Source: a virus. From it: a DNA stretch of 35,345 nt. Shown piece by piece: positions 4,134-35,274 of the stretch. Position 1 is the first letter of the stretch; every line of letters begins with the position of its first letter. The notes beneath the pieces were generated by a model, which had not been told where the DNA came from, ran no database searches, and saw nothing but the letters and a program-made list of their open reading frames with translations. The stretch is taken from the IMG/VR virus record IMGVR_UViG_3300028654_000005, positions 1 through 35,345 of that record; one strand, 5' to 3'. The translations under genes were made by a program, and so were the position numbers.

Positions 4134-4170
4134 ATATGTGTATTCTATTGTGTAATCTATGTATAGAGCA

Positions 4171-4238
4171 TTGGTCACTTTGTCGCATATCGATTGGTCA
4201 CTAAGTTACCAATCAATTGGTCACTTTGTTACCAATTG
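4171..4238. repeat. iteron/operator-like array of TTGGTCACT and inverted AGTTACCAAT half-sites
   Basis: TTGGTCACT occurs at 4171, 4194 and 4217, exactly 23 bases apart. Inverted copies, TTACCAAT, lie in between (about 4206-4213) and after the last copy (about 4229-4236). Five half-sites spaced by about one helical turn form a regular protein-binding array. Such arrays are typical of replication iterons or of repressor operators. The array lies upstream of P2 and downstream of the late-region terminators, in the largest non-coding stretch of the genome. Confidence 0.7.
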
Positions 4239-4281
4239 AAATCGCACTTGTCCTCAGGATGTCCACAGTATTTTCACAAGC

Positions 4282-4434: not shown

Positions 4435-4630
4435 ACTCGTATTCTCTTCGATGTTCTTCAGCCCACTTTTTTGCTCCGCCATTTTTGGCGTAGTGTTCGA
4501 GTAGCCAATCGGGATGATGATACAAGTCTTCATCCGTGCATTCGTGCTCGACCCTTGTCGCGTGACGATTCAAGGGACAGAGCAGTGCATCAATAATCTG
4601 CGCTACATTGTACCCTTTGAGATCAAACAT
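4433..4630 (-). CDS. moron-like small protein with its own promoter, Shine-Dalgarno site and terminator
   Basis: A 65-residue soluble protein beginning MFDLKGYNVAQIIDALLC, with a His/Glu-rich middle (HECTDEDLYHHPDWLLEHYAKN) and a basic/acidic C-terminus. I do not recognise the family. The start at 4630 is preferred over an in-frame ATG at 4654 because a perfect AGGAGGTG lies four bases before it. Base composition is clearly more GC-rich than the neighbours, and this is the only gene with a textbook ribosome-binding site. With its own extended -10 promoter and strong terminator, it has the hallmarks of a recently acquired autonomous cargo gene, expressed independently of the phage program. Confidence 0.75.
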   Translation of the reverse strand: MFDLKGYNVAQIIDALLCPLNRHATRVEHECTDEDLYHHPDWLLEHYAKNGGAKKWAEEHRREYE

Positions 4631-21531: not shown

Positions 21532-23040
21532 CTATACCCAACTGACACCTGGCACCGGCATCTTTTTCATCTGCCATGCGATTGATCGTGATAAAACTCT
21601 GTCATCATGTTTTCCTTTCGGCGCCTCTGCCTTGTTGTTGTCGTTGTAAATCATGTTTATGAGCTCATCCTGGGCCTCCGGGTATGATTCTATCAAGTCT
21701 CCCTTTCGGTACATCTCCTCGAGGTTTGATATCATGATGTTTCTGTTCTCCCCGGTGTTCCATTCCCGGTGTTTCACATGTAACTCTTTCGCCTTTTGAA
21801 TGTGCGCTACTCCGAGTCCGTTCTTTTCTATCGCAAGAAGTATATTGAACTCCTTACAAATCTTTGCAACCCTGGACCAGAAAACATCTATCGGGTCCGT
21901 GCATGTGATCTCGAATATGACTGCCGACTTTCCGGTATCCATATCTGAATCAATGACTGAGAAACAATGATTGTCTCCTCCCTCGTTTCCCTCTGCACAG
22001 TCTACCGCTCCGTATAATCTTTTCTTTTTAAATGCAATTTTCTTTTCATTGTCCCATTTATTTCGTATGCACCATGCATCGAAATCATCCAGTCTGATTT
22101 TTCTACTCGTATCAAGTATCACTCCCGAGAATACAGTCCTGCCAGTCTTTAAGAAACAACTGACATCGTCCTCCGGGTATTCCTGATAAAAGTTTTGTCC
22201 CTTGTCCCATATTTTATATCGTCTCCATTTGAGCATGCCGACTGTTACATCGATATCCCATTCTTCCTTTGCTCTTTTTAAAAGTCTTTTTTCTTCTTCT
22301 GTAATTATTTTATTAAAATCTTCATCACTCATCTTGACCATTTCCTGCACGCTCACGGAAAGCCCGGCGCGTTCTTTTTCATTAAAATGTGTCACATCAA
22401 ATTCATCGTTCATAAACCAAGGTATAAAAATTGGAGTGTAAGATGATAGTCCTGCTTTTGCTTTTTGCCATCTATCGTAAAACTCTCCACGTCCGTTCGG
22501 TGTAGTCTCAACATCTATCTGTCCGAACTCTGTTGCCTCTTCGATACCATTTAAAATTCTTTCAAGTTCTGCATAAAACGCGGCCTCAGATAAATGCGCC
22601 CGGTCGATTGTATCTCCACGGCCAAATGCTTTTGATCCTGCAGTACCTACGAAGTATGAGCTGTTCGTTCTTGGAAATCCTATCTCGGTCTTTGAGTTTA
22701 TTGATATCGTTGGCTTGGGTTCCATGTTCTCTGCAAACGCTCTCACGCTCGCAAAAAGTCTCTTAGTCGCCTCCTTTTCGTGAGAAATGATAACCGCATT
22801 GGTTGGCTTTCTCAAGCAGTCTACAGTCTGATCTGCATCTATAATTTTACTTAGTCCCCCCTGGCGAAACTTGAGTATCAGATTTCGTCTCGTTCTTTTC
22901 ATCCAGTAATAAAGTTGCACCCGGTTCAATACGAACGGGACCGTCTGTCCCCTCTTGTTTCTTATCTTGAAGTTCCTCTCTATTATTGTCCTTGAGTTCC
23001 ACTCCTGTTTTTGTTGTGTCGATGATTTCATATAATTCAT
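21532..23040 (-). CDS. terL: terminase large subunit
   Basis: A 502-residue DNA-packaging motor. The N-terminal ATPase has an RGQTVPFVLNRVQ entry (30-42), a Walker A-like LKFRQGGLSKII (56-67) and a Walker B/catalytic Glu region DRAHLSEAAF (146-155). The C-terminal RNase H-like nuclease shows Asp347 in YGAVDCAEGNEGGDN, EKNGLG (404-409) and the final Asp pair in KHDDRV (477-482). The start at 23040 (or ATG at 23031) lies 194 bases inside the terminase small gene. Conserved N-terminal sequence begins before the next internal Met, so the overlap is real. A terminator follows the stop codon. Confidence 0.95.
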   Translation of the reverse strand: MNYMKSSTQQKQEWNSRTIIERNFKIRNKRGQTVPFVLNRVQLYYWMKRTRRNLILKFRQGGLSKIIDADQTVDCLRKPTNAVIISHEKEATKRLFASVRAFAENMEPKPTISINSKTEIGFPRTNSSYFVGTAGSKAFGRGDTIDRAHLSEAAFYAELERILNGIEEATEFGQIDVETTPNGRGEFYDRWQKAKAGLSSYTPIFIPWFMNDEFDVTHFNEKERAGLSVSVQEMVKMSDEDFNKIITEEEKRLLKRAKEEWDIDVTVGMLKWRRYKIWDKGQNFYQEYPEDDVSCFLKTGRTVFSGVILDTSRKIRLDDFDAWCIRNKWDNEKKIAFKKKRLYGAVDCAEGNEGGDNHCFSVIDSDMDTGKSAVIFEITCTDPIDVFWSRVAKICKEFNILLAIEKNGLGVAHIQKAKELHVKHREWNTGENRNIMISNLEEMYRKGDLIESYPEAQDELINMIYNDNNKAEAPKGKHDDRVLSRSIAWQMKKMPVPGVSWV

Positions 23041-23533
23041 TTGTGTCTTTCCATTCTCCCTCTAATATTAAATCCTCTATACTTTTTTCTCCGGCTTTCG
23101 GAGCCACGACCTTTATTTTCGGCATGTAGAGAGGATGTCTCCTATCTAAAAAATATCTGATTGCGCTCACGTCTCCTTTTAATACTGCCTGATTGAGTTG
23201 CTGTTCTACATCATTCAATTTGTCTTCAAAACTTGCCCTTATTTTTTGATTAAAAACTGGGTCTCTTTTTAACCATTCATAGTATGTATCCCTACTGATA
23301 TCTACCTTGTCGCATGTCGCTCCTATTGAGCCAAGTGTTTTCTTGTAGAATGTAATAAACAAGTCTTTTTTTACTCTCGTTCTCTCTTGCTCTTTCTGTT
23401 CCGGGGTTGTAATGTTTGAGCCATCTAATAACTCTTTTTTGTCGGATTTTGTCGGATTTAGTAAGTCATTTTTAACCCCAGTGTCTGCTGAGGTTTTAAC
23501 TGCGTATGTCATTGTCTTTTCTATTTTGCTCAT
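22847..23533 (-). CDS. terS: terminase small subunit (helix-turn-helix type)
   Basis: A 228-residue protein. Residues 55-95 form a phBC6A51-like helix-turn-helix (RVKKDLFITFYKKTLGSIGA, then CDKVDISRDTYYEWLKRDPV), followed by a helical oligomerisation region (NDVEQQLNQAVLKGDVSAIR, RYFLDRRHPLYMP). The C-terminal ~64 residues are low-complexity and charged, and are encoded in the same DNA as the start of terL in another frame. It should recognise packaging sites and recruit the large subunit. The start overlaps the upstream stop as ATGA. Confidence 0.85.
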   Translation of the reverse strand: MSKIEKTMTYAVKTSADTGVKNDLLNPTKSDKKELLDGSNITTPEQKEQERTRVKKDLFITFYKKTLGSIGATCDKVDISRDTYYEWLKRDPVFNQKIRASFEDKLNDVEQQLNQAVLKGDVSAIRYFLDRRHPLYMPKIKVVAPKAGEKSIEDLILEGEWKDTNELYEIIDTTKTGVELKDNNREELQDKKQEGTDGPVRIEPGATLLLDEKNETKSDTQVSPGGTK

Positions 23534-23835
23534 TGCCTTGAATCAATTAAATAACTATTTTCTCCTTGATTGTTTACCCTGAAACCTGTGCTTTTTAATT
23601 CATCCCTGATTCTGTCTGACACTATGTAATCTTTCAGTCTCCTTGCCTCTACATATTTCTGAAACAACCTATCTGCATTTTCTCTTCTCTCTTTTAGTAT
23701 CATCTCTATCCTTTCCTTGTTTGCCTTTACGTATTCATCTGCTTTTCTCCGGGCATTTATATTATGCGGGATGTTTTTGATATCTCTTATTTTATTCAAC
23801 CACCACCATTTTGTGAAATACCATTGTATTCTCAT
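23530..23835 (-). CDS. small basic protein with cysteinyl-tRNA-synthetase-tail-like motif
   Basis: A 101-residue, highly basic helical protein. Residues ~65-90 (EARRLKDYIVSDRIRDELKS, then TGFRV) closely resemble the C-terminal helical motif of cysteinyl-tRNA synthetases (ARxxKD--xADxIRDxLxxxGI), which also occurs as a stand-alone module in small phage proteins. No synthetase catalytic domain is present. I chose ATG 23835 instead of an in-frame GTG at 23844, because the latter lies inside the tRNA-like element that ends at 23837. The motif may bind RNA, and the adjacency to a tRNA-like element is striking. Function unknown. Confidence 0.65.
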   Translation of the reverse strand: MRIQWYFTKWWWLNKIRDIKNIPHNINARRKADEYVKANKERIEMILKERRENADRLFQKYVEARRLKDYIVSDRIRDELKSTGFRVNNQGENSYLIDSRQ

Positions 23836-23836
23836 G

Positions 23837-23997
23837 TGGCCCACTTGGGAATCGAACCCATTATCTCCCGTTTACAGTCCCAAGGTCGTTGGGCGGGTGC
23901 TCTTGATACAGTTGGGCGCTTATCTTCCTTAGGTGGAGGGGGCGTTTTAAACTCCCTATTCACTACCACTGAATCGTTACCATTGAGCTACTGGGCC
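23837..23997 (-). tRNA. composite tRNA-like element, non-canonical (decayed, nested or intron-containing)
   Basis: On the minus strand the element starts GGCCCAGTAGCTCAATGGTA and ends with a normal T-arm, TGGG-TTCGATT-CCCA (23860-23846), and TGGGCC-A. The 5' GGCCCA (23997-23992) pairs with this TGGGCC. GCTC (23988-23985) pairs with GAGC (23902-23899) as a D-stem, but 82 bases lie between, and CCCG/CGGG (23897-23894, 23870-23867) encloses 23 bases ending CTGTAAA, a Tyr-GUA-like loop. The large insert holds a D-arm-like ATTCA-GTGGTAG-TGAAT and an anticodon-like GGGAG-TTTAAAA-CGCCC (Leu UAA-like). At 161 nt it is twice a normal tRNA. It abuts small genes on both sides. Whether it makes a functional tRNA is open. 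Confidence 0.45.
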
Positions 23998-24000
23998 ATA

Positions 24001-24078
24001 TTATTTTACCTCCGCCCTGCACTTCTTACAAATACCTTGCTTAGTTTTCCTATCTCTTTTGCATTTGATACATCTCAT
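24001..24078 (-). CDS. 25-residue zinc-knuckle-like peptide
   Basis: A short frame starting MRCIKCKRDRKTK. It has two CxxC pairs (C3/C6 and C17/C20) separated by a basic loop, exactly the shape of a minimal zinc ribbon. Its ATG overlaps the stop of the 78-residue gene as ATGA, and it ends three bases before the tRNA-like element. The paired cysteines and the coupling make it likely to be a real gene despite its size. Nucleic-acid binding is plausible from the charge. Confidence 0.55.
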   Translation of the reverse strand: MRCIKCKRDRKTKQGICKKCRAEVK

Positions 24079-35190: not shown

Positions 35191-35274
35191 GTTTGATAAA
35201 TTCGACCTTTTCTATGTCCTAATTATACCGCTACGTTTATACAAAGCTACTGAGTTGTCCACAGTTAAAAACGT
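35191..35274 (-). promoter_or_regulatory. P1 early promoter with conserved leader element (continues at 1-56)
   Basis: On the minus strand: ACGTTTTTAA (35274-35265), the DnaA-box-like TGTGGACAA (35263-35255), GTAG, a perfect -10 TATAAT (35227-35222), and leader GGTCGAATTTATCAA (35207-35193), ending 16 nt before the ATG at 35176. The part beyond 35218 is the redundant end and equals 1-56. Block order and spacing match P2. As with P2, no standard -35 is found, which suggests an activator-dependent promoter. Confidence 0.65.

Follow-up and report, generated by a model that had tools for sequence, protein, structure and literature searches.

A 161-nt tRNA-like element located directly ahead of the packaging genes of an uncultivated phage appears, from comparison with two homologues, to be a tRNA-derived, non-decoding structured RNA, a reading for which we regard the balance as about level; most probably we are dealing with a functional RNA and not with a defunct tRNA. 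The element lies on the minus strand of the window, by which we mean the whole stretch of 35,345 bases analyzed, a complete phage-type record with a 127-bp terminal direct repeat. Nearly all genes of the window are carried by the minus strand, and PHROGs matches were obtained for the small and large terminase subunits as well as the portal, major head and tape-measure proteins. Two close relatives were identified via the large terminase, L002 (94% identity) and L003 (81%), and both contain a homologue of the element at the same locus (L002:735-895 and L003:4379-4532), giving a set of three sequences, two of which stem from one metagenome. The element is flanked by ORFs of 25 and 101 codons and sits shortly before the small terminase gene; its surroundings are as follows.

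24004..24078, minus strand: 25-aa Cys-rich (zinc-ribbon-like) ORF, which stops just before the element and is present in L002 too
23837..23997, minus strand: whole tRNA-like RNA element (RNA position p corresponds to coordinate 23998-p; 210 bits with covariance model R1)
23530..23835, minus strand: 101-aa ORF, whose ATG begins 2 nt past the acceptor stem
22847..23533, minus strand: terminase small subunit gene (PHROGs), downstream of the element
21532..23040, minus strand: terminase large subunit gene (PHROGs)

The 101-aa ORF exhibited a weak resemblance to the C-terminal tail of CysRS (cysteinyl-tRNA synthetase; PDB E 0.064, NCBIfam E 0.0058) and was without counterpart in L002 and L003.

All pairings that a preliminary description had proposed for positions 23837-23997 were located, with the RNA on the minus strand. 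The acceptor stem, D-stem and T-arm pair as in one tRNA, as had been suggested, and these pairs are kept by compensatory change in L002 and L003. The large insert seen at the D-loop was likewise recovered: GCTCAATGGTAA is followed by 74 extra nt and then by the 3' D-stem strand, which places the insert at the D-loop/D-stem junction, and its length ranges from 70 to 76 nt across the homologues. At the anticodon position, the stem CCCG/CGGG closes the expected 23-nt loop containing CCCAA-CGACC-TTGGG and CTGTAAA. The tRNA-like body comprises the following parts.

23992..23997, minus strand: acceptor stem, 5' strand GGCCCA
23985..23988, minus strand: D-stem, 5' strand GCTC (GCTC/GAGC in the window, GTTC/GAAC in L003, GCTT/GAGC in L002)
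23977..23984, minus strand: D-loop AATGGTAA with the elbow GG
23903..23976, minus strand: 74-nt insert between the D-loop and the 3' strand of the D-stem, at about tRNA position 21/22
23899..23902, minus strand: D-stem, 3' strand GAGC, covarying with the 5' strand
23867..23897, minus strand: elongated arm at the anticodon position, CCCG/CGGG plus CCCAA-CGACC-TTGGG, without a 7-nt anticodon loop
23846..23860, minus strand: T-arm TGGG-TTCGATT-CCCA with a canonical T-loop
23838..23843, minus strand: acceptor stem, 3' strand TGGGCC, followed by A (N73) at 23837 and C at 23836

The acceptor stem of the window element consists of 6 bp, with a G-G mismatch at 7-66, and a further mismatch was observed at 49-65; in L003 only GGCT/AGCC remains, with four sound pairs. 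Folding energy was ordinary for both the window element (z = -0.5) and the L003 homologue (-1.3), and neither default ARAGORN nor Rfam called a tRNA in the window, so the case for the element rests on comparison. The missing calls, the two mismatches and the short L003 acceptor would all suit a decayed tRNA or a fused tRNA cluster without function; this is hardly credible, being contradicted by the covariation and the conservation of the insert core described below. With only the window and L002 as input, a covariance model retrieved the L003 copy at 77.3 bits (E 8e-18) and scored an insert-free tRNA-like neighbor in L002 at 18 bits. The Rfam tRNA model aligned to the L003 copy at 22.9 bits, its best score and below the RF00005 cut-off of 29 bits, and placed insertions of 70 nt in the D-loop and 13 nt in the anticodon loop. 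Together with the location of the homologues at the same locus and the strong covariation, this score indicates that the element is more than a chance resemblance.

Free drift of the pairings across the relatives did not occur. On the alignment of the three sequences fitted with the covariance model, 20 of the 35 pairs displayed two-sided changes, compared to a mean of 7.3 in shuffles, none of 500 of which reached this number, and 94.2% of cells paired, as against at most 52% when the partners were slid. Two-sided changes affected four of the six acceptor pairs, three of the four in the D-stem, all four of the stem at the anticodon position, and four of eight and one of four, respectively, in two stems of the insert (P1 and P2). 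This alignment (A7) is fitted to the structure, which biases the pair counts towards it, and pairs were recounted on a structure-blind MAFFT alignment, in which the acceptor, anticodon and T-arm columns are misaligned while the D-stem, P1 and P2 are paired in L003 at every position for which both letters exist, including swaps between the window and L003 from C-G to T-A in the D-stem and from A-T to C-G in P1.

Conservation was distributed very unevenly along the element. Between the window and L003, 31 of 33 positions of the insert core (94%) and 16 of 17 elbow positions (8-9, D-loop and T-loop) were identical, whereas the tRNA-body stems matched at 19 of 46 positions (41%) and the anticodon arm at 13 of 31 (42%). 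The sequences of the latter arm in the window and L002 are unrelated to that in L003, and both form a long bulged hairpin with a 5-nt loop. With respect to canonical tRNA features, the D-stem, the D-loop GG and the T-loop TTCRANN elbow were present, while neither a conserved anticodon nor a 7-nt anticodon loop containing U33 was; the conservation of the tRNA scaffold without that of an anticodon fits a non-decoding tRNA-like RNA or pseudo-tRNA. Since the core and elbow are conserved while the body stems and anticodon arm have diverged, selection seems to keep the elbow and insert and not the anticodon, which speaks against decay and makes an intron in a decoding tRNA unlikely. The fused decayed tRNA cluster considered in the preliminary description is contradicted by the covariation as well as by the 3' half of the element, in which the window and L002 share 66 consecutive identical bases even though four-fold synonymous sites in the neighboring genes differ at 24-39%; recent recombination could be a partial source of this identity.

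The same pattern bears on an intron-bearing tRNA gene, in which removal of the D-loop insert and of a 10-16-nt anticodon-loop insert would yield a functional tRNA, a scheme suggested for some tRNAs of Lak megaphages. The insert sits where the D-loop closes normally once it is removed, CTGTAAA would provide a normal Tyr-type anticodon loop in the window and L002, and ARAGORN, with introns allowed and a relaxed threshold, reported a tRNA-Pro(UGG) with an 84-nt intron in both of these genomes. A decoding tRNA assembled from two exons around an intron should exhibit the opposite conservation pattern from the one observed, in which the supposed exons (the tRNA body) are 55% identical between the window and L003 and the insert core 94%. 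Furthermore, the window and L003 have no anticodon in common, no insert-free homologue was found in the searched collections, no Rfam match to group I or II introns was obtained and no bulge-helix-bulge was apparent by eye at the junctions. Introns in phage tRNAs, including tRNA-Tyr(GTA), have been reported for Lak phages (PMC6784885), and because of this published precedent and a second tRNA-like RNA in L002 (element D, below) we retain the intron reading as unlikely and yet of some weight; as one of the options first raised for this element, it is disfavored. Several specific versions were rejected. The tRNA-Pro(UGG), with its good-looking loop CTTGGGA, does away with the covarying D-stem and has no equivalent in L003. 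For the window and L002, and not for L003, a tRNA-Tyr carrying two small inserts can be drawn; the GTA triplet behind the Tyr-like reading is not conserved. A group I or II intron was dismissed for want of an Rfam catalytic-core match; 74 nt would not accommodate a group I core.

Only part of the insert's inner fold is known, with support for the stems P1 and P2; these stems and the two conserved strands are as follows.

23968..23975, minus strand: insert stem P1, 5' strand GATTCAGT, also paired on the structure-blind alignment
23905..23912, minus strand: insert stem P1, 3' strand ACTGTATC, pairing with GATTCAGT
23960..23967, minus strand: insert core, first conserved strand GGTAGTGA, invariant in all three sequences
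23954..23957, minus strand: insert hairpin P2, 5' strand AGGG (G-C swapped to C-G in L002, ACGG/CCGT)
23937..23940, minus strand: insert hairpin P2, 3' strand CCCT, pairing with AGGG
23912..23936, minus strand: insert core, second conserved strand CCACCTAAGGAAGATAAGCGCCCAA

The part of the second strand that is invariant in the window, L002 and L003 reads CCACCTAAG.AA.ATAAG.GCC.AA. This fold differs from the inner tRNA arms originally drawn. In both relatives only about 3 bp of the D-arm-like hairpin ATTCA/TGAAT are left, and P1, which covaries, competes with this hairpin; the stem of the Leu(UAA)-like hairpin is conserved and corresponds to P2, its loop being without a fixed UAA. Covariation of the kind expected for tRNA arms is absent from the inner arms, which argues against a tRNA nested within a tRNA. 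A coding role of the insert was disfavored because of a one-base gap between the window and L002.

Each of the three genomes contains a tRNA-like acceptor stem separated by exactly 2 nt from the start codon (ATG) of the gene that follows: that at 23835 in the window, that of TerS at 1308 behind element M in L002, and that of TerS at 4532 in L003. The ORF finder had opened the L003 frame earlier; with the start at 4532, the N-terminus of the small terminase equals those of the window and L002 in length. In the L002 array, the homologue of the window element is followed by two additional tRNA-like RNAs. Element D (L002:946-1084) has as its centroid fold a cloverleaf with an insert of about 75 nt in the anticodon loop, which lends some support to an intron. 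Element M (L002:1236-1307) is a CAU-type tRNA-like RNA with C33 and no D-arm insert, and shares 77% identity with tRNA-Pseudo-CAT of Aeromonas phage Akh-2 over 65 nt. The exact spacing, the single shared locus in 3/3 genomes and the gene behind the window element, which is without the A-rich leader that precedes most other genes, would be consistent with an element that acts in cis on the packaging operon as a leader or processing signal, its tRNA-like fold serving as a cleavage site or regulatory fold ahead of the next start codon and the released RNA having no role of its own. We consider this rather unlikely, as the insert-bearing copy of L002 is not beside the start codon, with D and M intervening, mere punctuation needs no highly conserved insert core, and phage genes are usually tightly packed. 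Another possibility is that a DNA site for the terminase (a pac or cos region) is the main cause of the conservation and the tRNA likeness is inherited. The position of the element right before the terminase genes in the window, L002 and L003 would fit such a site; two-sided compensatory changes indicate RNA pairing, which is unexpected for a protein-DNA site, and most relatives are without the element, leaving this explanation very improbable.

A tRNA mimic with a regulatory role was the best fit among the four options originally listed, and the non-decoding structured RNA that we prefer is close to it. We tentatively propose, at somewhat less than even confidence, a new class of phage noncoding RNA in which the tRNA elbow acts as a scaffold displaying a conserved functional core of about 33 nt in an expanded D-arm, before the packaging genes. 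Under this proposal the core might be a protein-binding site, a sensor or ribozyme-like, a prediction we make with similar reserve. On the preferred reading of a non-decoding RNA, the element would be transcribed with the operon and would fold into an L via contact between the D-loop and T-loop. Host RNase P and a 3' tRNase, cutting at or close to the next start codon, would separate the RNA from the mRNA behind it, which would then start at the AUG or one base before. The D-arm domain would constitute the functional module, most likely as a putative site for a host tRNA-handling protein or a phage packaging or regulatory protein, while the tRNA body would provide the scaffold and a stability or processing tag. 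Phage tRNA genes that programs miss are usually dismissed as relics; here the elbow and the inserted domain appear to have been selected and the anticodon discarded, suggesting that phages recast tRNAs as structural RNAs. The conserved core offers a definite handle for the pull-down of a partner, and if one were found, it could tie tRNA mimicry to packaging-gene control or to the takeover of host tRNA enzymes.

The tRNA cluster of phage T4 also includes two non-tRNA stable RNAs, C and D, which resemble the element by description only. The tRNA-Pseudo-CAT of Akh-2, similar to L002 element M, lacks the D-arm insert, and its likeness to the window element goes no further than being tRNA-like. In Lak megaphages, tRNA genes including tRNA-Tyr(GTA) are interrupted by conserved inserts, one of which may encode a tRNA (PMC6784885). 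They share with the present element a phage tRNA gene with a conserved insert; by description they differ in that our insert, placed at the D-loop/D-stem junction, is more strongly conserved than the body, and in that the element leaves no ordinary tRNA with a shared anticodon. Bacillus cereus tRNA-Other, a bacterial pseudo-tRNA reported with a Trp anticodon (PMC3399842), is similarly a tRNA-derived RNA outside translation, as the phage element would be, but the latter has an extra domain of 70-76 nt and no anticodon loop. The human tRNA-like structures mascRNA and menRNA are processed by RNase P (PMC11693755) and are alike in design only, a tRNA fold adjoining another transcript as a processing mark; they are without a D-arm domain and no relation is claimed.

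On sequence evidence the element matches no Rfam family and no known phage record. Neither Rfam nor ARAGORN produced a match to tmRNA, riboswitch or ribozyme families, and blastn against annotated phage records returned nothing for the window region or the L003 element. A scan of 2.9 million viral contigs with five DNA patterns, together with covariance searches at 121 loci, recovered the element in L002 and L003 only, the remaining DNA-pattern matches being rejected due to their situation in unrelated sequence, and one DNA pattern run over bacterial and archaeal genomes yielded no further homologue. The TerL alignment and ParB-methyltransferase searches likewise revealed none beyond L002 and L003, the element was absent from all 15 relatives with 51-62% TerL identity, and the TerL alignment search detected no prophage relative.

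Several features of the surrounding sequences were also noted. Ahead of the L003 element, two noncoding stretches without an Rfam match, L003:3967-4131 and L003:4144-4272, fold strongly (z -3.6 and -2.7), and behind the second a hairpin and T run may form a terminator. In two more distant relatives, inspection by eye of the gap before TerS revealed a stretch (L042:3142-3268 and L043:5430-5556) that is closed by ACGTCTT/AAGACGT, precedes ACCA and has a T-arm-like hairpin, possibly another tRNA-like RNA. Within the window, Shine-Dalgarno sequences are almost absent (5 of 50 genes) and many starts carry AAAATC-ATG or similar. The leader GTCGAATTTATCAA ... AAATCATG is repeated before three genes, near 35200, 35000 and 4040 on the minus strand, and a gene-free region at about 4160-4240 (minus strand) contains a GTGACCAAT-type repeat in three nearly identical copies, which may be iterons or operator sites.
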